Below, one piece after another: positions 2,583 through 22,099 of a stretch of 30,390 bases of DNA. How positions within the stretch are numbered: the first letter of the stretch is position 1; each line of letters opens with the position of its first letter. The notes under the pieces were generated by a model, which saw only the letters and a list, made by a program, of their open reading frames with translations, was not told the origin of the DNA and did no database searches. The position numbers and the translations under genes are program-made. The stretch is from a virus: the IMG/VR virus record IMGVR_UViG_3300022538_000439, positions 1 through 30,390 of that record. The stretch is one strand, 5' to 3'.

Positions 2583-2699
2583 ATGAACCAAGAGGAATAC
2601 ATTAAAGAATTGAAGGAATTGTACGAGCGAGCCAAAAAAGAAGGACATCTTCAACTTGCCCTTGAAGTATTAGAACGGATTAAGCGGGGAAGACAATGA
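2583..2699 (+). CDS. Tiny helical hypothetical protein
   Basis: A 38-residue ORF that is almost entirely an amphipathic helix (EEYIKELKELYERAKKEG and following). The ATG has AGGAG upstream, and the stop overlaps the start of the co-chaperonin gene (ATGA). No function is assigned. Confidence 0.5.
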   Translation: MNQEEYIKELKELYERAKKEGHLQLALEVLERIKRGRQ

Positions 2700-2974
2700 A
2701 ACTAACCCCAACACTTGACAGAGTGGCAATAATCCGTGAGGAGAAGAAAAAGACAAGCAAGGGCGGGATAATCCTGCCTGACCAGGCCAAGGAAGAGTCC
2801 AATTACGGTGAGGTGATTGCCGTGGGGCCGGGCGCTTTCAATGTGGACGGTTCAAGGCGTGAAATGTCGGTCAAAAAGGGCGATGTGGTATTTTTCACCG
2901 ATTACCACGTTACGGTCACAGGATGTAAGACTGTAATAGTCGATGACGAGGACATTCTGGCGATAGTAAAATGA
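2696..2974 (+). CDS. GroES-like co-chaperonin (Cpn10 family)
   Basis: This protein is expected to form the heptameric lid that binds host GroEL and helps fold phage proteins, such as the capsid protein, in the cytoplasm. At 92 residues it has the full Cpn10 length. It begins with the family pattern L-T-P-x-x-DRV, has a Lys-rich mobile loop (about residues 16-30) with the GGIIL tripeptide region (23-27) that docks on GroEL, GEVIAVGPG at 38-46, a KKGDVVFF strand near 60-67 and the terminal DEDILAIV. The ATG overlaps the preceding stop and the stop overlaps the next ATG. No GroEL gene is visible, so it presumably works with the host chaperonin, as phage T4 gp31 does. Confidence 0.92.
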   Translation: MKLTPTLDRVAIIREEKKKTSKGGIILPDQAKEESNYGEVIAVGPGAFNVDGSRREMSVKKGDVVFFTDYHVTVTGCKTVIVDDEDILAIVK

Positions 2975-3364: not shown

Positions 3365-5409
3365 TGCCAAAGAAAGCTAAACTATCTCACGACAAGAAAG
3401 AGGAGCTCAGGGTCAAGATGCTCAAGTTCCGTCAAGAGGCCGAGGAGGGCAATAAGCAAGCTTTTATCCGTATGACCCAGAACGAGCGGTTTAAGATAGG
3501 CAAGCAGTGGGATGTTGATGATACCACTTTCAACGAGGCACACGGCAAGTTTTCGCTGACAATTAACGAAGTTTTGCCCATTATTCTTGATATTGCCGGT
3601 ACTGAGCAGGAGAACCCCTTGGATTACAAGGTGCGCAACGTCAAGGGTGGAACTCGGGTCATTGCTGAGATACTTACTTCACTGGCCAAGAATGTGATGG
3701 ACAAGTCTATGGGGCGTGAGGAGGCTTCGAGAGGCTTTGAGTCCGGGGTATCTATCGGTCGGGGATTTCTTTATATTGACATTGACTACAACAATGACCC
3801 CTTGAACGGCGATTTGATTATCAAGGAGCTCGACCCGTTCATGGTATTGCCAGACCCCACCGGCAAGGAATATGACTACAACGCCGAGCAGGGCGGGGCA
3901 AAGTATATCTGGGTGGACGAATGGGAAGACAAGGAAAAAATGGAGGCAAAGTATCCGGGCGAAGACCTTAAAAGTGCGCATTACGACCCGGTAGCACAGG
4001 GACTCTGGGGCCGCTTTACGGGAATAATGGGTTTCATGTTCGGCGGCGGTCCCAACCTGCATTTGAAAGACGATTACCGCCATCACGATGACCAAAATAC
4101 CACGGAAGAGGAATTGCAGGGCAACGTCACCAAGCAGACAAACAATTATCGTAAATCCGTATGCTGGTGGAAGGAGTGGAAAAAGGGCGCATACGTCCAG
4201 AGGCTTGACGACCCTCTGAATTACTTAGTCTTGACCGACCCCAAGGATATTTCATACGCCAAGCGAATTGCCGAGACTAATGAGAACATAAGGGTAATAG
4301 AAAAAGACCGTTACGAGAACCAGTTGACGGTTCCCATACTCAATAAGACCGTGATGTTAGGCGATAAATTACTGGAACATATCCCCGACCCGTTTGACGG
4401 TATGAACCTATACCTGATAGTGAGGTTTGCCCCGTATTTCGACCACGGCTACGAATACCCCCCGGTCGAGAACCTGATAGGGCCGCAGAAGCTCATCAAT
4501 TACACTTTTTCGCAAGTAGTGAACATACTCAAGGGACTGGCAAATACAGGGTGGAAAATAGCAAAAGGAACTCAAAAAGCAAAGGAGTGGCTTGAAGACC
4601 ACAGTGGCGAGGATAATATAATAATTGATGAGAGTAAATATGGTGGTAAAGCAGAAAAGATTGAACCTAATACTTTTCCAGTTGGCCTTGACATCATAAC
4701 CGAGCGGGGCAAACAGAATATGCGTGATATTTCTCAAGTCCAGTTACAGGTCCCGAAAACCGTCAGGCCGGAGTCGGGGATAGCCAAGCAGGTTGACGAG
4801 ATGCGGGGCTTGAGGACCAAGGGCATTATCTTTAGGAACTGGAACCAGACCAATATTTTACTTGCCCGGGTAATGGTGGAGTTGATACGCAATACCGAGA
4901 TATTCTCCGATGATGAGATAATGGCGATAATCGACGAGGAGGATTTGCTGGATGATAAGATTTTAGACCAGGCCAAGGGCATTATTATCAACCAGATACA
5001 GCAGCAGGGCGGGAGAATACCGCAACAGCCGCAGCCCCCGAACCCGATAAGGGTGCGTAATGCCTCCGTTGAAATGCAGGCACAAATGTTGGATTCTTTT
5101 CGGGAAGAAATGGAATTATTTCAACAGTTCGTAGAGCAGGTGGAGCAGACGGCCATACCGATAGCCAAGGACATCATATTAAAACTGCTCAGGAAGATGC
5201 AGCAGGGTCGATACGGTATCAAGGTCGATACCTCGCCGATGGCACCGACCGTAAGAATGATGAGAAGGATTGAGGCGCTCGAGCTTGACAAACAGTTAAT
5301 CGAGGGCGGCAGGGCGGGCATATCCCGCAGGAAACTGATTGAGATTTCAGATGTTCCGGACAAGGAAGAGATAATCGCCGAGGAAGTACCGGTACAGGGG
5401 GCGGCATAA
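3364..5409 (+). CDS. Portal protein, P22-like
   Basis: The portal is the dodecameric ring at one capsid vertex through which DNA enters and leaves, and it is the docking site for the terminase. The 681 residues fit the P22 class of short-tailed phage portals. Family-like features are the early LTINEVLPIILDIAGTEQEN segment followed by DYKVRN, then SIGRGFLYIDIDY and ELDPFMVLPDP in the wing region. The C-terminal third is rich in Gln and long helices (NPIRVRNASVEMQAQ, then a helical barrel-like region). It lies a short distance after the terminase and is coupled to genes on both sides by TAATG overlaps. A scaffold-capsid pair follows downstream, as expected. Confidence 0.88.
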   Translation: MPKKAKLSHDKKEELRVKMLKFRQEAEEGNKQAFIRMTQNERFKIGKQWDVDDTTFNEAHGKFSLTINEVLPIILDIAGTEQENPLDYKVRNVKGGTRVIAEILTSLAKNVMDKSMGREEASRGFESGVSIGRGFLYIDIDYNNDPLNGDLIIKELDPFMVLPDPTGKEYDYNAEQGGAKYIWVDEWEDKEKMEAKYPGEDLKSAHYDPVAQGLWGRFTGIMGFMFGGGPNLHLKDDYRHHDDQNTTEEELQGNVTKQTNNYRKSVCWWKEWKKGAYVQRLDDPLNYLVLTDPKDISYAKRIAETNENIRVIEKDRYENQLTVPILNKTVMLGDKLLEHIPDPFDGMNLYLIVRFAPYFDHGYEYPPVENLIGPQKLINYTFSQVVNILKGLANTGWKIAKGTQKAKEWLEDHSGEDNIIIDESKYGGKAEKIEPNTFPVGLDIITERGKQNMRDISQVQLQVPKTVRPESGIAKQVDEMRGLRTKGIIFRNWNQTNILLARVMVELIRNTEIFSDDEIMAIIDEEDLLDDKILDQAKGIIINQIQQQGGRIPQQPQPPNPIRVRNASVEMQAQMLDSFREEMELFQQFVEQVEQTAIPIAKDIILKLLRKMQQGRYGIKVDTSPMAPTVRMMRRIEALELDKQLIEGGRAGISRRKLIEISDVPDKEEIIAEEVPVQGAA

Positions 5410-5531
5410 TGAAAAAGAAAAACGTAAAAGTTGCATACCCTATTGGTCGTTGGCCAGCAGGGAAAATATCATCGTGTGTAATGACAAAAGACAAGAGATT
5501 GGTTATCAAACCAATTAAAAATAGGAATTAG
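5409..5531 (+). CDS. Tiny basic hypothetical protein
   Basis: A 40-residue, strongly basic ORF coupled to the portal stop (TAATG). It starts with a Lys run and ends in KPIKNRN. Nothing is recognisable; support is coupling and fit between neighbours. Confidence 0.45.
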   Translation: MKKKNVKVAYPIGRWPAGKISSCVMTKDKRLVIKPIKNRN

Positions 5532-5539
5532 GAAAAGAA

Positions 5540-6019
5540 ATGAAAGAAAGCAGAATATTGATTTTTGGACTTATAGTTTTTGCCAGTATAACCTTTTGCG
5601 TTTTTGGGGCGAGATTGAGTTATATATTTTCCGAGTGCGAAGTATTACTTGCTGAGAACATAGAGCTAAACGAACCAACGTATTATCATCCCCTTGACCC
5701 ACGTGCTTATACTTGCCCGAAATGTTATCCTGGAGCAAAAGGAGATTTATGTCCAGGGCATTGTGAGCCAAACGAACCAGAATGTATTGCTATTGAACAT
5801 CCGATGTTATCAGAAGGTTATACATTCAATATTTGGGAACCAAACGAAACAAATGTAGTATCTTTAGACTTTATCCCCACTTGGCCGGACTACATAGAGT
5901 TGGAGAAAGACTTGGTAATTATTTGGCCCAAAGAGACAATAGCAGAGAACTTAGATTGGCATTATCAACCTAAAGTAACGATGGCCAAAGGCACAAAGAT
6001 ATATTTCAAAGAGGACTAA
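5540..6019 (+). CDS. Membrane-anchored cysteine-rich protein
   Basis: A 159-residue protein with an N-terminal signal-anchor helix (about residues 7-24, LIFGLIVFASITFCVFGA), so the remainder probably lies in the periplasm. The middle part has a Cys cluster, CPKC followed by two further Cys and then PEC, which may bind metal or form disulfides. A beta-rich C-terminal part follows, with many Asn-Glu-Pro triplets. The ATG is preceded by AGGA. No family is recognised, and such a protein beside the portal gene is unexpected. Confidence 0.7.
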   Translation: MKESRILIFGLIVFASITFCVFGARLSYIFSECEVLLAENIELNEPTYYHPLDPRAYTCPKCYPGAKGDLCPGHCEPNEPECIAIEHPMLSEGYTFNIWEPNETNVVSLDFIPTWPDYIELEKDLVIIWPKETIAENLDWHYQPKVTMAKGTKIYFKED

Positions 6020-6056
6020 ACATCAAATTGTAAGCGTAAATTAACGAGGACTAAAA

Positions 6057-6527
6057 ATGGCTGAAGAAAACGAGAAAACAAAGGATAAAGAAAAAACAGA
6101 AGACGAAAAATTGTTAGCCGAAGCCAAGGAACTTGGCGTTACCAGGTCGAAAATATCAGTATCGCCTGGTTTCCGCACCAAAGACAGTACCCCGGAGAAA
6201 TTAGCAAAAGAGGAGAATAAACAAAATAAGCTGGCGGACGAAAGATTAAAAGACCGGGTGGAACAAGCCAAGGTGAATGCCAAGATAAAACCCATAGACA
6301 AGAGAAAGAATTTATTGGTCAGCAGGTTCAAAGCCGTAAAGTCCCGTGCCCGACCCAATAATTATTCTGATGCGAACATCAAGGCGTGGCTCGAAGAGCT
6401 CAAGATGATTGACAATAATCCGAAGTCCTGGAACAAGGTCACGAAGAACGGCACAATACCTTTTATACCCGATAACCGGAGAAAGAAAACCGCCAAGGAA
6501 ATGCTCGATAGTATGGACTTAGACTAA
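6057..6527 (+). CDS. Highly charged hypothetical protein
   Basis: A 156-residue protein that starts with an acidic/Lys-rich coiled-coil-like region (about residues 1-80) and continues with a basic region (KSRARPNNYSDANIKAWLEELK, about 92-115). The ATG follows GAGGA. Its place between portal and scaffold suggests a role in head assembly or packaging, but this is inferred from position only. Its stop overlaps the next start (TAATG). Confidence 0.65.
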   Translation: MAEENEKTKDKEKTEDEKLLAEAKELGVTRSKISVSPGFRTKDSTPEKLAKEENKQNKLADERLKDRVEQAKVNAKIKPIDKRKNLLVSRFKAVKSRARPNNYSDANIKAWLEELKMIDNNPKSWNKVTKNGTIPFIPDNRRKKTAKEMLDSMDLD

Positions 6528-6682
6528 TGAATGAGCAGGAACGCCGAGTACGATTAAATGAGATTGGCAAGGAGATAGCTTCCTTGTACCCGAAGTTAAA
6601 CGGTTCCGTCACCTTTGATTATAGTCAGGGAATTTTGAAAGGACTTAGAGAGGACACTAAATGGCGTCCTGATAAAAAATAA
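6527..6682 (+). CDS. Small hypothetical protein
   Basis: A 51-residue ORF coupled to the preceding gene (TAATG). An N-terminal basic helix is followed by a short strand segment (NGSVTFDYSQGILKGL). It is the last gene before the intrinsic terminator at 6733-6772. Family not recognised. Confidence 0.55.
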   Translation: MNEQERRVRLNEIGKEIASLYPKLNGSVTFDYSQGILKGLREDTKWRPDKK

Positions 6683-9130: not shown

Positions 9131-11056
9131 ATGAGAAAGTTAATTTTTACTTTAATGATTATAGCGCTTCTGGCTTGCCCGGCAATGGCCCAACGCTATC
9201 GTCAAATGCAAATTGCTATAGTGGATGAGTTCGGACAGGCCGTGACCAATATCGACCAGATTGAGATATACGATGCCGGGACAGACACCGCATCTACTAT
9301 TTATAGTACCAGGGCAGGGGTGAGCAGGACAAACCCGATGACTACTACTTCAGGGGGTTTCGACCAAAGTCTCGGCCTTGCATCTTGGTTTCAGTCCGCG
9401 CCGGATTTCAAGATAACTGTTGTAGAGAGCGGTGAATCCCAGTCTTTGACGGTTGATAATCTAACGAGTACGGATGTTCGTTTTGCCTGGTACGTAAATT
9501 ACATCGGAGAAGCGGCCACTTTGCAGATAACGGATGATACTACCTTGGATTTCGGCACCAGCGACAACTTCTATTTTGACTGGGTTGCCGGTAGTACAAA
9601 GTTAATATTAGCACCCGCCGCCGATGACGCCAGGTGGGACATTGGAATAGCGGATTATGCCACCGATATTTACTGGATTACCGGGGCGTCTATTGCCACT
9701 GATTATGCCCTCTTCGACCAAGATGAAGCTGAGATTTATCTCTGCGATATTGATGTTATGTGGGACGATGAGGCCATTGCGATATTCGGCTCCGACGAGG
9801 ACTTCAGTATTTATTCCAGCTCGGCAAATGTTTTGGTATTTGACCCCGGAACAACGGCGAATACTATCAACTTCGGTACAGCTAATACTGACGCTGTTGA
9901 TATAAAGTGGTTTACCGATACCAGTGCCAACTTCGTTACCTTCAACGAAGGCGACGATGAGGTGTATTTTACTGATGTCGATATTCAAATGGATGACGAT
10001 GCCGACATTATTTTCGGTACTCAAAACGACTTTGTTATCGAAAGTGATTCGACTGCGGTATTAGAAATTCTTGGTAGTGGTTCCAGTGAAGACCACGCCG
10101 TTAATCTCGGTCTTGCCTCATCGGGTGTTGACCTCAAGGCTTTCGGTACAGATGCCGGTGACTATTGGGAATGGGACTCCTCTGCTGATTTAGTAACGAT
10201 AGTCGGCGATGCCGTTGCCTGGACTCTCACCGAGGCCGCTACTACTGCGGTAAATATCGACATTACCGGTACTGACGGCGGTTTTGACCTGGATACTACA
10301 GATGGTCCGATTGCTCTTACTACAGCCGGGGGAGTTCTTGGTGATATGACCCTGACTGTATCGGATGATTATGCGAATACTGTTTCTGGTCACTATGCCT
10401 TGGCCGTTACCGGTTCGGCTACTATCACCACTACCTCGGATACAGCAAGTGCAATTTACATTCGAGAGAACGCCGGAACATCCGGGACTATCAAGATACA
10501 CGCCGACCAGGGCGAAGGAGACGAGTCTATTTATTTAGACTCGGATGCAGGCGGTATTACCATAAAGGCCGATGGCGGTTCGATTGATATTGAGCCGACC
10601 GGTGGTTCTGACGGCGACTTGGGAATAACGGTTGGGGATGATATGACCGTTATTGTCAGTGGCGATTACTCCTTGGCTGTTACCGGCACTACCACTCTGG
10701 ATGAGATTCTTTTCAAATGCCACGTAGAGGTAGTCACCACCACAAGTACGACAGTTCATGCCGTAGATACCGGCACGGTCTTTGTCACTACATCGGGTAC
10801 GGGCTCTCAGACGTTTTCGTTACCAACCGCAGCCGCCGGTCTGGTATTTACTTTCGTAGATATTAGTGCCACCGCAAACGATGACGTAAAGATTTTAGCA
10901 TCTTCCGGTGATACTATCAACGGGGGCACGGCGAATAGATGGTACTGGAATACCGCCGATGCAATACCCGGAAGTGCGACTCTTATGGCTGTTGATACTG
11001 CTGCCTGGGTTGTTATAACAAGTATAGGAACTTGGGCAAATAACAATGACCCGTAA
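9131..11056 (+). CDS. Exported repetitive fibre-like protein
   Basis: A 641-residue protein rich in Asp, Thr, Ser and Gly. It begins with a clear Sec signal peptide (MRKLIFTLMIIALLACPAMA, cleavage expected after residue 20). The rest is made of beta-rich repeats with a recurring plan in which a DDx-x-x-FG-type turn is followed by a short strand and an Asp-rich loop, for example D(A/D)xI(A/I)FG near residues 215 and 295. It resembles phage fibre or decoration proteins built on beta-helices. A C-terminal domain from about residue 525 (TTSTTVHAVDTGTVFV) looks like a small beta-sandwich. AAAGGTGA precedes the ATG. A virion role is inferred from position; the signal peptide argues for export. Confidence 0.75.
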   Translation: MRKLIFTLMIIALLACPAMAQRYRQMQIAIVDEFGQAVTNIDQIEIYDAGTDTASTIYSTRAGVSRTNPMTTTSGGFDQSLGLASWFQSAPDFKITVVESGESQSLTVDNLTSTDVRFAWYVNYIGEAATLQITDDTTLDFGTSDNFYFDWVAGSTKLILAPAADDARWDIGIADYATDIYWITGASIATDYALFDQDEAEIYLCDIDVMWDDEAIAIFGSDEDFSIYSSSANVLVFDPGTTANTINFGTANTDAVDIKWFTDTSANFVTFNEGDDEVYFTDVDIQMDDDADIIFGTQNDFVIESDSTAVLEILGSGSSEDHAVNLGLASSGVDLKAFGTDAGDYWEWDSSADLVTIVGDAVAWTLTEAATTAVNIDITGTDGGFDLDTTDGPIALTTAGGVLGDMTLTVSDDYANTVSGHYALAVTGSATITTTSDTASAIYIRENAGTSGTIKIHADQGEGDESIYLDSDAGGITIKADGGSIDIEPTGGSDGDLGITVGDDMTVIVSGDYSLAVTGTTTLDEILFKCHVEVVTTTSTTVHAVDTGTVFVTTSGTGSQTFSLPTAAAGLVFTFVDISATANDDVKILASSGDTINGGTANRWYWNTADAIPGSATLMAVDTAAWVVITSIGTWANNNDP

Positions 11057-11195
11057 AGAGAACATTTCTTTTCCGGTTAAGGGACAACTTACGGCGACCC
11101 AGGCAATATGGGCCTGGGTCGCTTTAGGTCTTGTAATTCTGTTCTTCTGGTTCGCCGCTGCGGTGGGTTGCTGGACTATTTGGAGATGGTTTTAA
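11046..11195 (+). CDS. Small single-pass membrane protein
   Basis: A 49-residue protein whose ATG lies inside the end of the preceding gene (11-base overlap) and whose stop overlaps the next start (TAATG). It has one long Trp-rich hydrophobic helix (about residues 21-45) with a Lys/Arg-containing N-terminus. It opens the glycan cassette. A holin-like or membrane-adaptor role is possible, but nothing specific is visible. Confidence 0.55.
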   Translation: MTRKENISFPVKGQLTATQAIWAWVALGLVILFFWFAAAVGCWTIWRWF

Positions 11196-11701
11196 TGGGT
11201 TATTTAATTGCAACAATCAAGTCCTGGAATATACAAAGGGCAGAGAAATTAAGAAATATTCGACCAGAACTTTTTGAATTAAGAGGTCGCCAACAACCAG
11301 TTATTTATTATGAATTGATAACCGAAAAAGAAGACCTTAATCTTAATAGGCTGAAGGAAACTAATCCTCGGTACATATTTTTTCCTCATTGGTCGTGGAT
11401 GATACCCAGGGAGATATACGAGAGATTTGAATGTATTGTTTTTCACGAAACGGACTTACCTTTTGGTCGGGGTGGCAGTCCGATACAGAACTTAATATCA
11501 ATGGGCATAGAGGAGACCAGGATTTCCGCCTTGAGAGTAATCGGGGAGCTGGATGCCGGTCCTGTTTATCTCAAACGTGATTTGAAACTTAACGGTTCGG
11601 CCACCGAGATATTCAATCGTGCATCAGATATTATTTATGAAATGATACTGGAGATTATCAAAAACGAACCAACGCCCATTCCCCAGGAATCAGAATTTTA
11701 A
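11195..11701 (+). CDS. Formyltransferase-fold protein (short form)
   Basis: A 168-residue protein of the formyl_trans_N fold, which uses 10-formyltetrahydrofolate to formylate amino groups, in some members on amino sugars of surface glycans. The core is PRYIFFPHWSWMIP (58-71), FHETDLPFGRGGSPIQNLI (83-101) and ELDAGPVYL (118-126). H84 and D120 match the catalytic His and Asp; the usual Asn two residues before the His is Val82. It lacks a C-terminal domain, so it is shorter than typical enzymes. The ATG at 11195 is chosen because it overlaps the upstream stop; an upstream extension would run over that gene. A substrate cannot be read from sequence. Confidence 0.75.
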   Translation: MGYLIATIKSWNIQRAEKLRNIRPELFELRGRQQPVIYYELITEKEDLNLNRLKETNPRYIFFPHWSWMIPREIYERFECIVFHETDLPFGRGGSPIQNLISMGIEETRISALRVIGELDAGPVYLKRDLKLNGSATEIFNRASDIIYEMILEIIKNEPTPIPQESEF

Positions 11702-11702
11702 G

Positions 11703-12365
11703 ATGAAAATGAATATGGTCAATGGTATAGCCGGAATAGCGGTACTTACTTCAAAAGAGAGCTGGTATGTTCCCCGGGCGGAGATATTAGTATCGTATCT
11801 TTGCTCTCAGGGATATGACGGCAAATTATGTTTTGAGCCGGAAGATGTTGGTAATGTTGATGCTGTTTTCATATTGAGTTATTTTCATCTGGTCAGTAAA
11901 GAGTTCTTAAGCAAACATAAGCACAATCTTGTAATTCACTGTTCTGATTTGCCTCAAGGGAAAGGATGGTCGCCAATTACCTGGCAAATACTTGAAGGTA
12001 AAAGCAAAATTCCCATAGTCATTTTTGAAGTAGTTGAGGACATGGATGCCGGAGACGTATATTTCAAGGACTATGTTGAGTTTGAGGGTCACGAATTACT
12101 TGATGAAATCCGATTGAAACTTGCTCAAAAAATTATTGAATTGTGCATACAGTTTTTGAGGTCAATCCCTAAAGGTCACAAACAAACAGGAGACGAAACA
12201 TATTACCGGCGAAGAAATCCCGCTGATAGTATGTTAGACCCCCAAAAAACCATAGCCGAGCAGTTTGAGCTTTTAAGAGTTGTCGATAATAAAAGGTATC
12301 CGGCTTTTTTTAATCATCGAGGTTACAAGTACGAATTATTTATCAGAAAGGTGTTGGAGCAATGA
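11703..12365 (+). CDS. Formyltransferase-fold protein with C-terminal domain
   Basis: A second 220-residue member of the same fold, one base after the first. The matching core is VIHCSDLPQGKGWSPI (77-92) and VEDMDAGDVYF (111-121), giving H79 and D115 as the catalytic pair, again with Val in place of the usual Asn (V77). Unlike its neighbour it has a C-terminal part with YYRRRNPADS and RYPAFF followed by YKYELFIRKV, as in formyltransferases of surface-polysaccharide loci. Two related enzymes in tandem may act as a pair, or one may be a non-catalytic partner. The likely substrate is an amino sugar, by family and context; this is inferred. Confidence 0.8.
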   Translation: MKMNMVNGIAGIAVLTSKESWYVPRAEILVSYLCSQGYDGKLCFEPEDVGNVDAVFILSYFHLVSKEFLSKHKHNLVIHCSDLPQGKGWSPITWQILEGKSKIPIVIFEVVEDMDAGDVYFKDYVEFEGHELLDEIRLKLAQKIIELCIQFLRSIPKGHKQTGDETYYRRRNPADSMLDPQKTIAEQFELLRVVDNKRYPAFFNHRGYKYELFIRKVLEQ

Positions 12366-12472
12366 AGATTATTCTCTACATATTTAGAGTTATTCAATTT
12401 ATATTCTATGAAGGAGATAAGAAATATAACGGGCATTGGGACGAAAATCATTGGTGGGACCATAATGAGTAA
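12362..12472 (+). CDS. Tiny hypothetical protein
   Basis: A possible 36-residue ORF coupled to the formyltransferase stop (ATGA). It has a short hydrophobic N-terminus (MKIILYIFRVIQFIFY) and a His/Trp/Asp-rich tail (HWDENHWWDHNE), which could bind metal. Its end overlaps the next gene by 8 bases. Support is position only. Confidence 0.4.
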   Translation: MKIILYIFRVIQFIFYEGDKKYNGHWDENHWWDHNE

Positions 12473-12635
12473 AATACTTCTCTATATTCTGATTTTAGGC
12501 ATTGTCCTGTTTTTGGCTACGGTTCTTTTTACGGCGATACATTGGCTGGCAACACCCCTAAGAGTTGCCAGGCTGACTTTTTTTGAAAGATTGTTAAATA
12601 ATTACTGGGGCTTTCTTGCTTATTGGCTTAAATAA
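12465..12635 (+). CDS. Small membrane protein sharing its leader with the O-antigen ligase-like protein
   Basis: A 56-residue protein with an N-terminal transmembrane helix and a second amphipathic region. Its first residues (KILLYILILGIVL) almost equal those of the O-antigen ligase-like protein encoded about 860 bases downstream. I chose the ATG at 12465, overlapping the upstream tiny ORF; an in-frame ATG at 12408 lacks a ribosome-binding site. The stop overlaps the methyltransferase start (TAATG). Function unknown. Confidence 0.55.
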   Translation: MSKILLYILILGIVLFLATVLFTAIHWLATPLRVARLTFFERLLNNYWGFLAYWLK

Positions 12636-13324
12636 TGCGCGGTCTATTTTATAACAGATTAACAGCAAAGTTGGCTGTAGGAACAGTGCTGCGTGGCCAT
12701 AGCCTATGTTATAAGTTGGCCGGGCGATTTGCTTCGGTCTTAAACGGAGGATTGCATCCTAAGCATAATATCTTGAAATACAAGGAGTGGTTCTTGGATA
12801 ACATCGAATCGGGTTGGACTATTGTGGATTTAGGTTGTAACACTGGAATGCTGCCGTTTATGCTGGCAGAGAAAGCAGCTTCTGTTTATGGCATTGAAAT
12901 AAATGAGGAGTATATCTCCATTGCCAGGACACGGTATGCCAGAGATAATATCGAATATATTTGTGCTGACGTTACGACATATAGCTATGCTTCATGTAAG
13001 CCTAATTGCGTAACGATGTCAAACGTACTGGAACATATTGATAACCGTGTTGACTTTTTGAAACGAATCATTCGCCAAATTAACTGGGCAAATGATAAAA
13101 AGCGACTCCTCTTCCGTGTCCCCCAAATTGACCGCGAATGGCTTGTTCTCTACAAAAAGAAGATGGGAGTTGAATATCGACTTGACCCGACCCATTATGT
13201 TGAATATACACTTGAAAGTTTTACTAAAGAAATGGATGAAGCAGGGATTAGAATAATCAATGCGGATATACGCTTTGGTGAAATTTATGCGGTTTGTGAA
13301 GCTAAATCTCCAAACGAAATTTGA
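12635..13324 (+). CDS. Class I SAM-dependent methyltransferase
   Basis: A 229-residue protein with a complete Rossmann-type methyltransferase core. The SAM-binding motif I is VDLGCNTG (64-71), the acidic residue after strand 2 is in GIEIN (E88), ADVTTY (111-116) follows strand 3, and SNVLEHI (129-135) is the motif IV region typical of Methyltransf_11/23-type enzymes. The N-terminal 50 residues are basic with a conserved-looking HPKHN segment, seen in some glycan methyltransferases. Its place between formyltransferases and an O-antigen ligase-like protein suggests a sugar or lipid-linked glycan substrate. The stop lies one base before the next ATG. Confidence 0.85.
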   Translation: MRGLFYNRLTAKLAVGTVLRGHSLCYKLAGRFASVLNGGLHPKHNILKYKEWFLDNIESGWTIVDLGCNTGMLPFMLAEKAASVYGIEINEEYISIARTRYARDNIEYICADVTTYSYASCKPNCVTMSNVLEHIDNRVDFLKRIIRQINWANDKKRLLFRVPQIDREWLVLYKKKMGVEYRLDPTHYVEYTLESFTKEMDEAGIRIINADIRFGEIYAVCEAKSPNEI

Positions 13325-13325
13325 A

Positions 13326-14912
13326 ATGAAGAAACTTCTTTACATCCTGATATTAGGTATTGTCTTATGTACTTTTGCCTCCAGTGATAAAGTATTGGAG
13401 CAAGGTCTGTCCATACGCAATATAATCTGGGCTGTTCTGGCCCTGGTATTGTTCTATGTGATTTCCTCGTCAAAAACTGTTTTCATAAAGTCGCCGATTT
13501 TCCTGGTCTTTTTCGCATTTCTTTTAGTGACTGCGATTTCACTTTTCAAGGCCATCAATGTCACCGAAGGATACTTCGAGGTCGGAAGGGTCTTGGTGAT
13601 GTTAGTCTTTCTCTACGGAATTTCAGTGATTCTATATGAGCAGGAGAACAAAGACAAATTGATAATAGCCTTGATAATACTTGCTCTATGTATAGGTATC
13701 TACGGGGTTTACGAATATTTCACAGTAACCTACAGTCGGCGATTGGGTTTTATGAGTAACCGTAACCTCTGGTCTGCGGCTCATCTTCTTCTTCTGCCTT
13801 TCTGTTTATATGGCTTGAAACGATGGAGATATTTATGTATCGTTGCCGGGACCCTGTTGTTATTCAATATTGTGACCCTAATGACCCGCTCAGTTTGGGC
13901 TTCTCTATTAGTATCTACTTTCGTAACTCTGTTGATATTTCGCAAGATTCCCAAAATAAGAGTAATCGTTTTGATTTTAGTGGTTGTGGGGTTATTTCTC
14001 TATTTTGGAAATTATAAAAGAAGAATAAGGGGAGTAATCGGTACGGACTCTCTTGCGTTGCGTTTTCAAACCTGGAAGCAAACTTTGCAAATGTCCCGTG
14101 ACAATCTTCTCGGAGTAGGGGCGGGCAACTGGAAAATCAATGTTGCCAAGTATGGTAATGAATACCCCGGCGTGGCATCAGATGGTACTAAGGCGCAAGG
14201 TGAGCGTTTTTTCCTGCGTCCTCACAATGACGGCCTTTGGGTGTTGTCCGAGACGGGAGTAATCGGCTTTGGTCTTTACGCAACCATCTTTTTGATGTCA
14301 CTTTACTATTCTTACAAGACCAAAAATATGGCAATGTTTTTCGGGATTATGTGCTACCTGGGATTCGCGTTCTTTTCGTTCCCCAAAGAGAGGGTATTCC
14401 CTTCGGTCATTTTATTAGTGATGATAGCAATAGTCATTCCGAAAGAGAAGTGGATTTGTCTCAGTCCCCAGTTAGTCCATTTCGCAAAGGTGCTGGTAAC
14501 TGTATTACTGTTGATGACCATATCGCTTTATGCCGTCAAGTTCAAGACCGAGATAATGATTAGAAGGGTCATAGATAACAGGGGACGGAAGAACTGGCAG
14601 GAAGTCATAAATATAATTGATAACGAATACTCAAGACTATCGACTATCGACCCGATATTCGCTACGCCGATTATCTTCTATCGGGCGGAGGCCTATCTTT
14701 ATCTCGGTAATTATAGGCAGGCTCTTGAGGATTTCAAGAGAGCCTACCGGCAGAATCCATTTCATATTTACGTTATATCGAATCTCGCAAGCTGCTATGC
14801 GATACAAGGATTCCCTAAAGAGGCCATAGAATATTACGAAGAAACCCTAAGAATATGTCCATCTTTTGTAGCGGCAAGAAATAATCTTAAAACATTAAAA
14901 GGAAGAAGTTGA
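13326..14912 (+). CDS. O-antigen ligase/polymerase-like membrane protein with TPR-like C-terminus
   Basis: A 528-residue polytopic inner-membrane protein of the Wzy_C (O-antigen ligase) superfamily, whose members transfer glycans from undecaprenyl-diphosphate to lipid A, to a growing chain or, in PglL-type enzymes, to protein Ser/Thr. About ten hydrophobic segments span residues 1-405. The large periplasmic loop carries RFQTW (246-250), LLGVGAGNW (261-269) and RPHND (298-302), whose His300 matches the family's essential His, then SETGVIGFGLY. Residues about 445-528 form two TPR-like repeats (YRAEAYLYLGNYRQALEDF and the NLASCYAIQGFPKEAIEYY unit). ATG 13326 lies one base after the methyltransferase stop. 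Ligase, polymerase and protein glycosyltransferase cannot be told apart from sequence. Confidence 0.85.
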   Translation: MKKLLYILILGIVLCTFASSDKVLEQGLSIRNIIWAVLALVLFYVISSSKTVFIKSPIFLVFFAFLLVTAISLFKAINVTEGYFEVGRVLVMLVFLYGISVILYEQENKDKLIIALIILALCIGIYGVYEYFTVTYSRRLGFMSNRNLWSAAHLLLLPFCLYGLKRWRYLCIVAGTLLLFNIVTLMTRSVWASLLVSTFVTLLIFRKIPKIRVIVLILVVVGLFLYFGNYKRRIRGVIGTDSLALRFQTWKQTLQMSRDNLLGVGAGNWKINVAKYGNEYPGVASDGTKAQGERFFLRPHNDGLWVLSETGVIGFGLYATIFLMSLYYSYKTKNMAMFFGIMCYLGFAFFSFPKERVFPSVILLVMIAIVIPKEKWICLSPQLVHFAKVLVTVLLLMTISLYAVKFKTEIMIRRVIDNRGRKNWQEVINIIDNEYSRLSTIDPIFATPIIFYRAEAYLYLGNYRQALEDFKRAYRQNPFHIYVISNLASCYAIQGFPKEAIEYYEETLRICPSFVAARNNLKTLKGRS

Positions 14913-15506
14913 ATGTCGATAACGAAAGCGAACATCCTGACAGAAGTAAACGACAATCTTGAAACTGATTTGGATGATATTGACAAGTACATCCAGAAAG
15001 TTTTGGATGACTTGTCCGAGGAGGACTTACTGGTCGGTTCCGATGCTACCCAGGAACTCGAATCAGGGGATACCACGCTCGATGAACCTGATGGTTTTCG
15101 GGCTTTGATTAACATTGTCCTGACTATCACCTCAAGTTCTTCGGAGCAATTCCCGTTAGTCAAATTACCCGGCGGGCATAAGCAGTATCGGGAGTTGCGT
15201 CATAACGACGATTCGATAGGGATACCGAGATTTTTCAGTAATTTTAACGGCAAGTTTTATTTATGGCGTCCGGCCAATGCGGCCTTTACATCCCTTATAG
15301 AGTATTACAAAGACCACCCACAGGATGTCGATAATATCGAGTTCGGGGACAATTACAAGAATGTGATTTATGCTGGTTCTACCTTCTATACTGCTTTGAA
15401 ATCAGGCAGGACAAGGATGATACAACTGTGGGGCACGGTCTATCAGGATGCCAAGCAGAAGCGAATTGACTCTATGGTCTATCAACCGAGATTTGTTAGG
15501 GGATAA
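14913..15506 (+). CDS. Head-tail adaptor candidate
   Basis: A 197-residue protein of the size and plan of the portal-adjacent adaptors of short-tailed phages (SU10/gp4-like). A helical acidic N-terminus (about residues 1-50) is followed by a beta-rich middle with LPGGHKQYRELRHND and FYLWRPANAA, then helices ending in a basic tail (YQPRFVRG). It begins one base after the glycan cassette and ends overlapping the fibre gene (TAATG). Normally such a gene follows the capsid gene closely, so the cassette appears to be inserted between them. The family call is by resemblance and position. Confidence 0.6.
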   Translation: MSITKANILTEVNDNLETDLDDIDKYIQKVLDDLSEEDLLVGSDATQELESGDTTLDEPDGFRALINIVLTITSSSSEQFPLVKLPGGHKQYRELRHNDDSIGIPRFFSNFNGKFYLWRPANAAFTSLIEYYKDHPQDVDNIEFGDNYKNVIYAGSTFYTALKSGRTRMIQLWGTVYQDAKQKRIDSMVYQPRFVRG

Positions 15507-16243: not shown

Positions 16244-18100
16244 ATGGCTGATTTTGCAATAATATCTCCGAAGCTCGGTGTATCCGAGGGTATGCCAACT
16301 ATCCTTTTGTCAGAGGCTTTTATGGCAAAAGGTTCGGAGAATGTACACGAGCGCTATGGCCGTTATGACAAGTTGCTGGGCAGACTCCCTGACTTATACG
16401 ACAGTGAGAATGTAAAGATAAAAGCTCCGACCGATGTTTACACAATATCGGCGATAGATAGCTCCAATAAGAAACTCACAGTGACCGGTGACGTTACTTC
16501 CGGCGAAACAGAATTGGCGGATGGCGCTACTATAAGAATCAACGGGGGAACCACGGCGGCCAACAATATCACTTTCACCGTCAATGGGACACCGACCTAT
16601 TCATCTCCAAGCTCAACTGTTTACGTAGATGAGTCCATATCAGTCGCAGGTGCAACGCCCGGTAATTTGTTCGTCGGTGCTACCCCAGTTATAGAATATC
16701 ACCGGCATATAAGACAGAGTACGGGGACGGAATATTTACTGTTAGGGACTAAATATCATATTTTACTTTGGCTTCAATCGAACAGGTCATTGACGGTCAA
16801 ATGGACAACCCTTGTTCCGGCCAATGTCAAAAGATGGGAGATTAAAGACCACCTGAGAAATGTCGTTGCTACCAACAATTCTGACTTCGTGTTGTGGTGG
16901 AATGTCGATAGTAGCGCGGCGAATGCTTTTACGGCTCTCGATAATTCAAATGGCATAGATTACGAGGGTACATCCAACAGGTTGACGAAATGCAAGCATA
17001 TAACCTCTTACGAGAGATACCTGATTTTGGGATATACTACGGAAGCGGGGACGACTTACCCCCAACGGGAAAGATGGGCTTCATTAGCCACTGGTGGCTC
17101 GACTATTGATTTCGACGAGAACGGGTCAGGCGATGCCGGTGCTAAAGAGTTTACTACAACCCCCGGATTCCTAATGGGGTTCGCAAGGCACGGGGACGAT
17201 TTGGTAATAGCAAAAGAAGATAGTATGTATAGAAGCTGGCACGTTACGGCAGATACCGTGTTCGAGTGGGAAGAATATATACTCAAGGTAGGATGCCTAT
17301 CGGCTGATTCATTGATAAACGACAAAGCGGGAAGATTATACTGGATAGCTTCCGACCTTACCATCCGCGAGATAATGACACCCCGTTCCATAAGTACGGC
17401 GGTGGACATAACGGTAAAGGGTTTGAATACCGCAAAGGCTGAATTTATACAGGCAACTTACATTGACGAATACGAGGAGATATGGTGGTCGTTACCGAGC
17501 AGTGATAGCGATACCAACGATACGATAGTTGCGTTCCATCCCAACAGCGGTAGAAGTTATATCTATAAGATTCCAGTAAGGGCTTTCGGTGATTTCACGC
17601 AGCAGGAGGCGTTTACTTACGATACCCTGCCTTATGATACTTATGCAGACTGGGGTGCGGCCTGGTTAATATACGACACCCAGAGGAACGTAGTGGGATT
17701 TCCGCTGGATTTGGCCTCGGACTATCTGGGAAATACCTTTGACCTGCACCGGGCTAATAATGACGATGGCAGCGACTTTACGGCCATACTGATTATATCC
17801 ACGACATTGACGGTTCCGAAATCACTTAACCTTTTCAAGAGGGTGAACAACGGTGCTGACCTTATATTTAACAGAAAGTCATCGGGCGAGGCAATACTTT
17901 ATACCAAAAGGGACACCGAGAGGGGCTGGCAGTTATTGGGTACGGTCTCTTTTATTGATACCGACTTACCGGAGATGGTAATTGTTCACGTGCCGTTTGA
18001 TAAGCGGGCAAAGTCTTTCGAGTTCAAGTTAGAATCATCTGACAGCATGGAGTTTCTGGGAATGATATTTAGAGAATATGTGTTTGACGATTACAGATGA
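16244..18100 (+). CDS. Tail nozzle / tail-tubular B-like virion protein
   Basis: A 618-residue beta-rich protein with the plan of the nozzle or stabilisation proteins of short-tailed phages (T7 gp12, P22 gp10 types). The opening (NVHERYGRYDKLLGRLPDL) is followed by an inserted beta domain (about residues 65-145), then propeller-like blades with RWASLATGGSTIDFD, FARHGDDLVIAKEDSMYRSW and GRLYWIASDLTIREIMTPRS. The C-terminal part is another beta domain. It lies between the fibre and small tail genes and would form the distal tail tube. It starts directly after the previous stop, and its stop overlaps the next ATG (ATGA). Confidence 0.7.
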   Translation: MADFAIISPKLGVSEGMPTILLSEAFMAKGSENVHERYGRYDKLLGRLPDLYDSENVKIKAPTDVYTISAIDSSNKKLTVTGDVTSGETELADGATIRINGGTTAANNITFTVNGTPTYSSPSSTVYVDESISVAGATPGNLFVGATPVIEYHRHIRQSTGTEYLLLGTKYHILLWLQSNRSLTVKWTTLVPANVKRWEIKDHLRNVVATNNSDFVLWWNVDSSAANAFTALDNSNGIDYEGTSNRLTKCKHITSYERYLILGYTTEAGTTYPQRERWASLATGGSTIDFDENGSGDAGAKEFTTTPGFLMGFARHGDDLVIAKEDSMYRSWHVTADTVFEWEEYILKVGCLSADSLINDKAGRLYWIASDLTIREIMTPRSISTAVDITVKGLNTAKAEFIQATYIDEYEEIWWSLPSSDSDTNDTIVAFHPNSGRSYIYKIPVRAFGDFTQQEAFTYDTLPYDTYADWGAAWLIYDTQRNVVGFPLDLASDYLGNTFDLHRANNDDGSDFTAILIISTTLTVPKSLNLFKRVNNGADLIFNRKSSGEAILYTKRDTERGWQLLGTVSFIDTDLPEMVIVHVPFDKRAKSFEFKLESSDSMEFLGMIFREYVFDDYR

Positions 18101-18381
18101 GAGCTAAAAAAATATTAGGACTGCCGTTACCGGAAGAGCTTACATCGAATAAGCTCGAAGATATAAAGGAGTATTTGACTAAATTTTACAATGCTCTTGA
18201 TACGGGATACAGACTTTTATATCAGGACACGGCGGAGATACAAGTTGACTCCGATGGCTGGATATATTTCGGCAATAAAGACACGAATGGGAGCTGGCGG
18301 ATCGGACGCTCCGGCAACGATTGGAATATGGAAAGAAGGGAATCAGATTCGTGGGTAGCAAAGGGAGCGGCAACGGAATGA
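18097..18381 (+). CDS. Small virion-type protein with fibre-like C-terminal motif
   Basis: A 94-residue protein coupled to the nozzle gene (ATGA). A helical N-terminus (EELTSNKLEDIKEYLTKFYN) is followed by a short beta motif, WIYFGNKDTNGSWRIGRSGN then DWNMERRE, often seen in small phage tail or fibre proteins. It has no signal peptide. Its stop overlaps the next gene, an exported protein. Confidence 0.65.
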   Translation: MRAKKILGLPLPEELTSNKLEDIKEYLTKFYNALDTGYRLLYQDTAEIQVDSDGWIYFGNKDTNGSWRIGRSGNDWNMERRESDSWVAKGAATE

Positions 18382-18731
18382 GAAGATTCATTGTAATATT
18401 TCTGATAATAGCAGTTATTTTAATATCGGTGGTATATGCCGGTCTTGACGCAAAGGACGGTAAGGTAATCAATGTCGCCACGCCCACAGAGGGAACTGAT
18501 GCGGCCAATAAGGATTACGTTGATGCCCATATAGTTGCTACCAGCACACCTGCCAGCACTTCCGGTACGGGGACGGTCGGGTCGATAGTGTGGGACAACG
18601 AATATGTCTATGTATGTATAGCTACCGATAGTTGGTTGAGGATGGAGTTAAACGCCTGGGGCGATAAATTGTTACTTGAAACTGGCGATGTGATATTGAA
18701 TGAATCCGGAGGCAAATCAATATTGGAGTAA
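18378..18731 (+). CDS. Exported small fibre-like protein
   Basis: A 117-residue protein beginning with a signal peptide or anchor (MRRFIVIFLIIAVILISVVYA, residues 1-21). The mature part starts with a fibre-type linker (GLDAKDGKVINVATPT then TDAANKDYVDAH), which in ordinary phages belongs to cytoplasmically assembled fibres, then a compact beta domain with VWDNEYVYVCIATDSWLRM. ATG 18378 overlaps the previous stop; a longer in-frame start would overlap that gene further. The combination of fibre linker and signal peptide is unusual. Confidence 0.75.
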   Translation: MRRFIVIFLIIAVILISVVYAGLDAKDGKVINVATPTEGTDAANKDYVDAHIVATSTPASTSGTGTVGSIVWDNEYVYVCIATDSWLRMELNAWGDKLLLETGDVILNESGGKSILE

Positions 18732-18733
18732 AA

Positions 18734-21700
18734 ATGAAAAAGCTAACGTACATAATTTTATTACTGTTCGCATCGACACTATATGCCGCTGATACGAAAC
18801 TGTCGGCACTAAGCGAACTAACCACCGTTGCGGACGCCGACCTCATTTATATCGTAGATGTGACTGGTACTACATCATTGAAGATAACCGTCCTCAATCT
18901 TTTCGATACCATAGATACCTTTGCTGAACTAAATACTATCGTGGCCGACAAGACGCTTGCTAATTTGAATGATGCGATGACGTGGGTTGCTCTTGGCACA
19001 TTTAATTTAGGTATAACTATAACCACGGGCGACCCTTTTACTTTAGGTGCAGTCCGATGGGATGATGGTTCTGACCAAATTGACGGTGAACAGATTGCGA
19101 ATGATACCATTGATGATGATTCGATAGACTTTGTCGATGTTACCGGGGCAGATTTAACGCTTACCGATGCTGGGGCGATAACTTCGACAGGAACGATAAC
19201 CGCCACCGTGGGATTCGATATTGTCGGAGCCGCTGATATTGATTACGGCTCTGCGGACGTTACCGACCATACTTTTATTACCGATGGTACAGGAACGGCA
19301 GAGGTTGTCTTGCCGACTGGTTCTATTGACGGGACGGAAATATTAGATGATACGGTAGATTCCGCCGATTATGCCGCCGATTCAATAGATAACGAGCATA
19401 TCAACTGGTCAGACATTGATAATCTCGGTGATGAGGGAACAATTACTGTCGCCGATACGACTGATACAACTTCTTACGTAGCTTTATGGGAGAGTGCCAC
19501 AGGAGATTTGGCCGCCAAATCCGATGGTGGACTTCTCTATGATGCAGGGACGGCAACTTTGGCAGTAGGAGGCTCCTTAACTGTATCCGGTTCTGTTACT
19601 GTTTCGTATATTTTAGAAGCGGCGACTCTGACCGAGGGCGGCAATGCTGTCTATAGTTCTGGCGAAACGCCCAGTGGTGAATTAGGCGGTACATACGCTA
19701 ATATTACGATAGATGATGGTGTGGCCGTCTCAAGTTGGAATTTAACTACACCCACATTTACAACCACTGCTTTACTTGTAGGAATACTCCAAGATAACGA
19801 TGATATGGTTTTTGAATGCGATGCAGATTCGGACGGCTCGAACAAATACAGCTTTACCGATGGGGCGGCGACAGAGATAGCCGCACTTACCGAGGCGGGG
19901 GCATTGCAGCTTGATAGCAATTTGACTATCGGAGCAAATGCTGATGTTGACTATACCTTAACATTTGACGGCGATACTTCCGATGGCGTACTGAATTATG
20001 ACGAGGACAATGCTGAGTTTGAATTTGACCAAAATGTAGTTATAACCGGTAGTCTTACTGTTACTGGCTCGGTGACTGTTTCAGATATTTTAGAAGCGGC
20101 AACTCTGACTGAAGGTGGCAATGCAGTATGGAACGCATCTGAAACAGACATACTTGATTCAGGGCATTACATAGCCGATTCTATCGACAACGAGCATATC
20201 AACTGGGCTGACATTGACAATCTCGGAAATGAAGGGGCTGTGACTTTAGCAGCTACGGTAACTGTCTCAGATGATGAGAGCACCGATGACGACCAAGAGA
20301 TAGTCTTTACTACAGACAACGCCACCTTGGAGTCAGACGGGGACTTTCACTACAGCCCGGATACGGGTACGGTAACGGCCACTGAGTTTGTCGGCGGTGG
20401 AGCGGGATTAACGGGTACTCTTACCGCTTACGATGATATAGCAGACCCGGATGCTTCGGGTTCGATAAGTTTTGATGATGGAGAGACGGCGACTTATACG
20501 GGAACTAATGATGGGGCTATATCATTCTTCACTATCCAGAACTCCGATGCAGACCACACCGGGGGGAATCTATATCTTCTTGACCTCGATTATAGTGCCG
20601 ACGATGGCGATGCCGATGCGGACTTTATCAAGTTTCAAGACAGTGGCGGTGTAGTGATGACAATACAGCAGGGCGGGGAGATTGCGACGGACGGTGGTAT
20701 TACGGCTGGAGGAACAGTAGAAGGAGCAACGATAACCGAAGGGGGGCAGGCGGTTTGGAACGCCACTGAGACAGACATTCTTGATTCAGGACACTACATT
20801 GCAGGCTCGATAGATTATGAACATTTAGCTGATGATGTTATATCAGGAGCGGCGGCGGTAGGAACTTTTGAATCGGGTGATACTTTTTTAGTCTTAGAAG
20901 CGGGTGTAGGATTAAGGGAGGTTGATTATGACGATTTGCCTGGCGCCGCCGGAGTTACCGCTTGGGATGATATTGGAGACCCAGATGCCGCAGCGACTAT
21001 TGACTTCGTAACTTATACCCAAACCATTGATATAGGAAAATCCGATAGTGGGGGCGGTGATGGTTTGATTCTTGATGTTACAGGATTGGGTGCAGGTCCA
21101 GATGATGTTACCGCCTTATTGATTACAACTGTTGCTAATGATGATACTGATTATATTCCTATGGAAGTTTATGATGATTCGGGTGGTAGTCCTGATTTAC
21201 TTTTCGAGATAAGTTCAACTGGTAGAGTTTATGCGAAAGGAGGAGTATATTTAAGTGGTGGAGCATTATTAGATAGCCCTATACCTAACTTTACAGTTAC
21301 AAGTGCAAGTGATGTGTTTACATTAGGTTTCGGTGGTACTGATATTGATATATTATGGTCTGACGGCGTATTGAACCTTCGTAATCAAGAAGATGGTGTT
21401 GATGCTATCGTAGAGATTGAGGGTAAGGACGCCAATGAAAAAGGTATCTTGCGGGTTCTTTCGGATGGTGACGACAAGAACATCGAACTATACCACGATG
21501 ATACCGATGGTCACATCTTAACAAGTTCGGGTGATTTGCATATCGAACCCGATAATAAACTTACTGTAATTACAGGTTCTTTAACCGTTACCGGCTCTGT
21601 TACTGTTTCCTATATTCTTGAAGCTGCCACATTAACCGAAGGCGGAGTGGCGGTTATAAATGCAACAGAAGGTGGGGCTTGGACAGGCACACACGACTTG

Positions 21701-22099
21701 ACTGGAGCAACTGTAAGTATGCCCAAGCGGACATCGAATGACGAAAGATTTTTTTCTTTCAATGTTTGGAACCCAAACGCCGTTTACGATACGGATACTC
21801 AAATTTGTTTCGAGCCTAACCTTCCGGCAGCAATAACAATTACCGAAGTGACGGTCACGCTTGATGCCGACCCGACAACCGAGCTTGACTGGGACTTGAA
21901 ATGGGCTGATGCGTTTATAGGGTTGGGTAATGCGGCTCTGATTGTAGCGATTGATACGACCAGTGGCACTACTGATGTCGATTCTGGTTTTGATGATGCT
22001 ACGGTTGCGGCGGGAAAATGCCTTTATATAGAAATGGCAGCCGACCCCGACAGTAACATCAAACAAGCAATTGTAAAAATAAGATACGATTTCGATTAA
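18734..22099 (+). CDS. Giant exported repetitive fibre-like protein
   Basis: A 1121-residue protein with a Sec signal peptide (MKKLTYIILLLFASTLYA, cleavage expected near residue 18). The early part has a fibre-like KITVLNLFDTI segment. The body contains recurring units: SLTV(S/T)GSVTVSYIL followed by EAATLTEGGNAV at about residues 280, 438 and 947, a shortened unit near 660, and an ADSIDNEHINW(S/A)DIDNL unit at about 215 and 480. It is very rich in Asp, Thr, Gly and Ser. The C-terminal 120 residues (from about FFSFNVWNPNAVYDTD) form a non-repetitive beta domain that could be a receptor- or ligand-binding tip. GGAG precedes the ATG. A surface or virion fibre role is inferred. Confidence 0.8.
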   Translation: MKKLTYIILLLFASTLYAADTKLSALSELTTVADADLIYIVDVTGTTSLKITVLNLFDTIDTFAELNTIVADKTLANLNDAMTWVALGTFNLGITITTGDPFTLGAVRWDDGSDQIDGEQIANDTIDDDSIDFVDVTGADLTLTDAGAITSTGTITATVGFDIVGAADIDYGSADVTDHTFITDGTGTAEVVLPTGSIDGTEILDDTVDSADYAADSIDNEHINWSDIDNLGDEGTITVADTTDTTSYVALWESATGDLAAKSDGGLLYDAGTATLAVGGSLTVSGSVTVSYILEAATLTEGGNAVYSSGETPSGELGGTYANITIDDGVAVSSWNLTTPTFTTTALLVGILQDNDDMVFECDADSDGSNKYSFTDGAATEIAALTEAGALQLDSNLTIGANADVDYTLTFDGDTSDGVLNYDEDNAEFEFDQNVVITGSLTVTGSVTVSDILEAATLTEGGNAVWNASETDILDSGHYIADSIDNEHINWADIDNLGNEGAVTLAATVTVSDDESTDDDQEIVFTTDNATLESDGDFHYSPDTGTVTATEFVGGGAGLTGTLTAYDDIADPDASGSISFDDGETATYTGTNDGAISFFTIQNSDADHTGGNLYLLDLDYSADDGDADADFIKFQDSGGVVMTIQQGGEIATDGGITAGGTVEGATITEGGQAVWNATETDILDSGHYIAGSIDYEHLADDVISGAAAVGTFESGDTFLVLEAGVGLREVDYDDLPGAAGVTAWDDIGDPDAAATIDFVTYTQTIDIGKSDSGGGDGLILDVTGLGAGPDDVTALLITTVANDDTDYIPMEVYDDSGGSPDLLFEISSTGRVYAKGGVYLSGGALLDSPIPNFTVTSASDVFTLGFGGTDIDILWSDGVLNLRNQEDGVDAIVEIEGKDANEKGILRVLSDGDDKNIELYHDDTDGHILTSSGDLHIEPDNKLTVITGSLTVTGSVTVSYILEAATLTEGGVAVINATEGGAWTGTHDLTGATVSMPKRTSNDERFFSFNVWNPNAVYDTDTQICFEPNLPAAITITEVTVTLDADPTTELDWDLKWADAFIGLGNAALIVAIDTTSGTTDVDSGFDDATVAAGKCLYIEMAADPDSNIKQAIVKIRYDFD
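19571..21655 (+). repeat. Dispersed internal repeats of the giant fibre-like gene
   Basis: Related blocks of about 80 bases lie at 19571-19650, 20048-20130 and 21575-21655, with a shorter relative at 20714-20762. A second block type lies at 19381-19436 and 20179-20236. The peptides are nearly identical, but many codons differ at third positions, so the repeats are old at DNA level and conserved at protein level. Confidence 0.75.

Follow-up and report, generated by a model that had tools for sequence, protein, structure and literature searches.

Phages of several capsid lineages carry a recurrent gene module that consists of a spike with a signal peptide, usually a small membrane protein, a WaaL-fold membrane enzyme and a variable set of sugar-tailoring genes. 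We describe it from IMGVR_UViG_3300022538_000439; the window analysed is this entire record, a linear virus fragment of 30,390 bases, in which seven cassette genes lie between the spike gene and the tail adaptor gene (Table 1). The core enzyme combines a Wzy_C domain with a C-terminal TPR domain. The presence of the same core pair, small membrane protein and Wzy_C-TPR protein, in unrelated phages behind an export-marked spike suggests that certain phages coat the spikes they export with sugars.

A gene pair behind a signal-peptide spike

A first-pass annotation of this DNA had read the cassette as an insertion into the virion genes, and comparison of the capsid-to-adaptor interval bore this out. 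In L001 and L002, whose capsids are 77-80% identical to that of the window, the cassette is absent and the spike gene leads directly to the adaptor gene. L004 (capsid 78% identical), an independent metagenome contig with the same flanks, holds a two-gene form in the order spike, small membrane protein (41 amino acids), Wzy_C protein and adaptor, as in the window. The adaptors of these three relatives are 65-72% identical to the window adaptor, and the L004 Wzy_C protein is 34-37% identical to that of the window; an adaptor-based search returned no additional relatives of the window. Where the cassette is present, its simplest form is thus the pair of small membrane protein and Wzy_C gene.

Nine more virus contigs with a Wzy_C-TPR protein (L009-L014 and L016-L018) came from alignment-based searches. 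Alignments were needed, as a single-sequence search of the viral contigs with the Wzy_C protein gave no matches. Counterparts of the small membrane protein, 37-53 amino acids long, adjoin the Wzy_C gene in L004, L009, L010, L011, L013, L014 and L018, with BLAST homology among L009, L011, L013 and L014 only.

In 10/10 readable contigs, the product of the gene preceding the pair bears a Sec-type signal peptide, versus 12/146 (8%) of the other genes. A heuristic rule of our own was used to call signal peptides. Because the contigs are related, the nominal p of 1e-11 for this linkage is no real probability. The N-terminus of the window spike, MRKLIFTLMIIALLACPAMA-Q, is kept in L001, L002 and L004. 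A beta-helix-like spike family precedes the pair in L009, L010, L011, L013, L016, L017 and L018, and the spikes of the window, L004, L012 and L014 have a common C-terminal domain. The AlphaFold2 (AF2) model of the window spike is of low confidence (predicted local distance difference test, pLDDT, 58) and too weak to be interpreted throughout; in fold it most resembles anchor domains of phage tailspikes and capsid spikes (7rej, 9ny6). Among 51 phrog_212 relatives, only three, all already known, carry the enzyme.

Capsids in the contigs with a Wzy_C-TPR protein belong to at least four families (PF13252 in the window, phrog_212, phrog_1357 and phrog_3437), and the Wzy_C tree is discordant with capsid family: L009 groups with L013 and not with L011. 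The L009 and L013 proteins are 51% identical for Wzy_C and 59% for the spike, with no BLAST hit between their capsids or adaptors; for L009 and L011, the identity is 89% for the capsid and 42% for Wzy_C. Because ligase and spike of L009 and L013 are related while capsid and adaptor are unrelated, these comparisons indicate that spike and enzyme travel between capsid lineages as a block. Another sign of block exchange is found outside the cassette, where the products of window positions 26291-28492 and L018 positions 20155-21447 are 57% identical over 444 amino acids despite different capsid families.

In a tree of 11 phage and 26 cellular Wzy_C-TPR proteins, the phage members form one clade (support 100/99). 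Nearest to it are proteins of Bacteroidota and Fibrobacterota, the groups from which the cellular homologues chiefly come. A recent host origin of the Wzy_C gene is unsupported, since the phage proteins form a clade apart from the cellular ones. This clade, together with the lack of any tblastn match (E 0.01) to the Wzy_C-TPR protein among 50,697 deposited phage records, also leaves the likeness to the O-antigen conversion of P22 and epsilon15 that had been drawn at first without support. Genes of the P22, epsilon15 and D3 type are expressed from prophages and lie outside the late virion operon, whereas the present cassette directly adjoins the spike and adaptor genes and shares their strand. 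Neither the window nor the L004 record, which may both be incomplete, contains an integrase.

Five cellular loci of Bacteroidota or Fibrobacterota (L022, L026, L031, L038 and L041) encode, directly downstream of the Wzy_C-TPR gene, a Sec-signal protein of one common type with a shared SxSPSxGxxGQxLPITISG-like start. The sequences make the two proteins a candidate enzyme-substrate pair in cells. We rejected the idea that the cellular matches are prophages, as no phage late gene was present among the loci listed (about L036-L043 left out).

The core enzyme

The Wzy_C domain (PF04932) of the core enzyme reached 53.3 bits against a curated cut-off of 31.7. Its AF2 model (pLDDT 90, predicted template modelling score 0.91) had the O-antigen ligase WaaL (7tpg) as best non-TPR fold match (E 1.6e-4, probability 1.00, 14% identity), which was also the only match in the PDB with E < 0.001. 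A structure search of BFVD returned TPR-type matches only and no full-length structural match. Thirteen membrane segments were predicted. As nine hydrophobic segments precede the large loop and four follow it, both this loop and the TPR domain are predicted to face the periplasm. The loop (residues 232-310) contains H300; R246, H300-N301-D302 and E309 are invariant or almost so across the enzyme family, in which a VGAGN motif and R356 are conserved as well. The model thus predicts a WaaL-like fold with a large periplasmic loop carrying a catalytic His.

Together with the families of the neighbouring genes, Formyl_trans_N and Methyltransf_11, the Wzy_C profile match and the WaaL-like fold agree with the initial description of a glycan-type cassette. 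The cassette enzymes probably attach sugar chains outside the inner membrane.

Organization and origin of the cassette

All seven genes are on the plus strand and free of internal stops. From the spike through to the adaptor, the intergenic gaps are -11, -10, +1, -4, -8, -1, +1 and 0 bases, and the capsid flank is Phage_capsid_3 (PF13252, 1e-42 in Pfam). Both the tight single-strand run with all genes named in the first-pass annotation and its position between the capsid/fibre genes and the adaptor were therefore recovered. The gap of -10 assumes a start of FT1, the first of two formyltransferase-fold proteins, at 11186 and becomes -1 with a start at 11195; the latter is probably the correct one, because the stop-start overlap TAATG and the beginning of the match to 1zgh are located there. 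The Wzy_C gene starts at 13326, versus a mechanical open reading frame start at 13260.

Table 1. Genes of the cassette and its flanks in the window
Feature	Position	Strand	Basis
Putative virion spike/fibre with N-terminal Sec signal peptide, proposed acceptor	9131..11056	+	N-terminus and weak AF2 model fold matches
Small membrane protein (49 aa), the upstream member of the core pair	11046..11195	+	Counterparts beside the Wzy_C gene in other contigs
FT1, formyltransferase-fold, 1zgh type	11195..11701	+	Formyl_trans_N (Pfam); phmmer to PDB 1zgh, 5e-50
FT2, formyltransferase-fold, Fmt/ArnA/PseJ-like	11703..12365	+	Formyl_trans_N, 6e-11
Tiny protein, 36 aa, hydrophobic N-terminus	12362..12472	+	Sequence; overlaps FT2 stop
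Tiny membrane protein, 56 aa	12465..12635	+	Start repeats Wzy_C gene start
Class I S-adenosylmethionine-dependent methyltransferase	12635..13324	+	Methyltransf_11, 2e-13
Core enzyme: Wzy_C membrane protein, WaaL-fold, C-terminal TPR domain	13326..14912	+	Wzy_C 3e-14 and TPR (Pfam); AF2 model
Flank: tail adaptor, SU10 adaptor type	14913..15506	+	SU10_adaptor PF24175, 9e-08

FT1, FT2, the two tiny genes and the methyltransferase gene were probably inserted later between the two members of the pair. This fits their low G+C content (31-40%, versus 41-53% in most other window genes, 49% in the small protein gene and 41% in the Wzy_C gene), the finding that none of the other phage contigs examined holds a relative of FT1, FT2 or the methyltransferase, and a copied gene start: positions 12468-12512 match 13326-13370 at 33/45 bases, so that the start of the second tiny gene copies that of the Wzy_C gene. 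The direction of change was thus probably from the pair to the elaborated cassette. L012, with a glycosyltransferase and a methyltransferase gene downstream of its Wzy_C gene, is a separate case of elaboration.

The drop in G+C content is also what an assembly artefact or a chimeric contig might produce, and the inner joints, from FT1 to the methyltransferase, were found in the window only. We regard this explanation as very improbable: the inner joints show start-stop overlaps, and both outer joints are reproduced by L004 from another metagenome, by which a chimera at the outer joints is ruled out.

A scan for sigma-70-like promoters yielded 23 sites on both strands, compared to 14.7 +/- 3.9 in shuffled sequences, and none at the start of the cassette. 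AGGAG-type ribosome sites are present in the window and argue mildly against Bacteroidota as host.

Sugar-tailoring genes

The match of FT1 is to PDB 1zgh, an entry deposited as 'methionyl-tRNA formyltransferase'; FT2 matched 1zgh (3e-16), ArnA (5e-12) and PseJ (7e-06) in phmmer searches. Both share the family match and the HxxDLPxGxGxSP motif with formyltransferases of the 1zgh, ArnA and PseJ type, from which they differ in being phage proteins and in the catalytic Asn-His-Asp triad: His and Asp are present, but a Val occupies the Asn position of FT1 and FT2, as it does in 1zgh. A homologue of FT1 in the viral contig L067 (871-8463) is part of a set with Polysacc_synt_2, GNAT, PIG-L, NeuB and HisF-type proteins. 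As this set is nonulosonic-acid-like, a role of FT1 in amino-sugar chemistry appears likely; the set lies near virion-like genes. For the methyltransferase, no sugar-specific family exceeded its cut-off.

Possible function of the module

The reading that we prefer, at somewhat less than an even chance, is that the core two-gene module works like a substrate-linked oligosaccharyltransferase and glycosylates the exported spike. Such enzymes leave a genomic sign, as the genes for TfpO/PilO, TfpM and PglS frequently neighbour those of their own substrates (PMC12645811) and 21/31 pglL candidates adjoin pilin genes (PMC3643930). The constant Sec-exported neighbour of the phage enzyme is the same kind of sign. 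Of the two purposes suggested by the first-pass annotation, decoration of exported phage proteins fits better than a block of re-adsorption. Under the preferred reading, the spike would pass via Sec to the periplasm, guided by the signal peptide seen in its sequence, and the host or the phage would supply an undecaprenyl-linked glycan, as the Wzy_C family implies. FT1, FT2 and the methyltransferase, by their families, may modify sugars of this glycan in the cytosol prior to flipping. The Wzy_C enzyme, with catalytic loop and TPR domain predicted in the periplasm, would then move the glycan onto the spike, and the decorated spike might reach the surface of the cell or be incorporated into virions upon lysis or later. 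More tentative still is the wider proposal of a phage oligosaccharyltransferase family that glycosylates the Sec-exported spikes of the same phages in the periplasm before they join the particle and is equipped with exchangeable sugar-tailoring genes.

A membrane enzyme with an exported spike, and soluble enzymes with a cytosolic one, would be expected if the spike is the acceptor. In the phrog_212 group, soluble sugar cassettes (L070, L077, L078) indeed stand behind spikes without signal peptide (3/8 versus 0/15, Fisher 0.03; small numbers). The spike-adaptor slot of L070 encodes a glycosyltransferase-FkbM protein, a methyltransferase, PIG-L, a glycosyltransferase and WbqC; L078 has the same set and L077 part of it. 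With one unassigned gene beside WbqC, this is a six-gene cassette (L070 3133-8037, L078 6050-11233).

Several points weigh against the preferred reading. Assembly of virion parts normally takes place in the cytosol. By adjacency the spike is a candidate substrate of the enzyme, and its place in the virion is putative. Many relatives have signal-peptide spikes without a Wzy_C gene, among them L090 with a spike of the beta-helix family, and the enzyme is therefore not required for export. Besides the five loci described above, there are cellular homologues in the neighbourhood of glycosyltransferases or an O-antigen-type exporter. The activity of FT1 and FT2 is uncertain because the triad Asn is replaced. 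A Pfam scan of the enzyme up to E 1 detected neither PglL_A (PF15864) nor Wzy_C_2, and we therefore did not file it as PglL or PglS. Domain content cannot tell an oligosaccharyltransferase from WaaL or Wzy, in accordance with authors who consider shared domains insufficient to identify a protein oligosaccharyltransferase (PMC3643930, PMC12645811).

The main rival, which we consider nearly as likely, is a modification of the host envelope: a WaaL- or Wzy-like phage ligase or polymerase with tailoring enzymes would alter O-antigen or capsule during virion production and thereby stop superinfection or re-adsorption to debris, and the slot behind the spike would be a tolerant insertion site. Phage Wzy_C proteins in that role are known, for example the D3-type wzy and a VarioGold gene (PMC9658991), although the latter is located outside the late genes, and prophage wzy genes are known in Acinetobacter (PMC13228068). 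That the same slot accepts soluble sugar cassettes, and that some cellular homologues are found near polysaccharide genes, also agrees with it. It leaves unexplained the constant signal peptide on the preceding spike, the co-travel of spike and enzyme, and the small partner. A mere recombination hotspot, in which convenient borders let the spike, the small protein and the Wzy_C gene move as one and the enzyme has no functional tie to spike or virion, would account for the many different genes housed in the capsid-to-adaptor slot of relatives and for the presence or absence of the pair among closely related phages. One would not expect a gene carried along by chance to keep a single order and strand across four capsid families or to form a long-kept phage-only clade, and we judge this explanation improbable.

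Relation to known systems

The phage enzyme resembles WaaL (PF04932; 7tpg) in fold, Wzy_C domain and the conserved Arg and His-Asn region of the periplasmic loop. It differs in its low sequence identity, one extra membrane segment, the C-terminal TPR domain and its location between phage spike and adaptor instead of a lipopolysaccharide locus. TfpO/PilO, TfpM and PglS are Wzy_C enzymes encoded beside a single exported substrate that forms fibres (PMC12645811, PMC3643930). The phage enzyme likewise has the gene of an export-marked protein, its putative substrate, as neighbour, and like TfpO and TfpM it lacks the PglL_A and Wzy_C_2 domains; in the phage module, known here from genes alone, the neighbour is a phage spike instead of a pilin and the enzyme carries a TPR domain. 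D3 wzy, VarioGold VG_p25 and Acinetobacter wzy1Ph/wzy2Ph are likewise phage-borne membrane proteins of the O-antigen or capsule type, several with Wzy_C. These are prophage genes, and the present family has no tblastn match in the phage records searched. The mycobacteriophage Che8 group, as cited in PMC11256854, also glycosylates its own virion; there, according to that citation, glycosyltransferases near the 3' genome end act on the capsid, whereas the present module combines a membrane ligase with an exported spike. A search of the open-access literature retrieved no paper on a phage-encoded O-oligosaccharyltransferase.

Further features of the window and its relatives

Four further putative virion proteins of the window have Sec-like signal peptides (18372-18731, 18734-22099, 22398-23093 and 23090-23959); in the last of these, a C-terminal hydrophobic segment precedes a final KRRKQC. 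Most of the phrog_212 contigs found, among them L009 (8165-8803), encode a GT-A-like protein of about 210 amino acids (weak Glycos_transf_2) between decoration protein and spike. L011 has genes for an APS kinase-like protein (5124-5864) and a sulfotransferase-looking protein (5865-6548) just upstream of the capsid gene; the L009 counterpart of the latter had no Pfam hit. Between the terminase and portal genes lies one for GroES (Cpn10; window 2696-2974), which is kept in L001, L002, L004 and L006. The adaptor gene of L002 (11790-12647) contains an inserted segment resembling part of the 16244-18100 protein (36% identity).

Implications

Whichever reading applies, these WaaL-fold enzymes form a phage clade that seems not to have been described before and is absent from the deposited phage records searched, and they mark the spike-adaptor slot as a site of phage-carried sugar chemistry. 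Should the spike prove to be the acceptor, phages would possess a membrane-bound pathway, linked to its substrate, by which they glycosylate proteins of their own. Virion spikes would then cross the envelope, challenging the notion that the cytosol is the only place where virion parts are produced and assembled.

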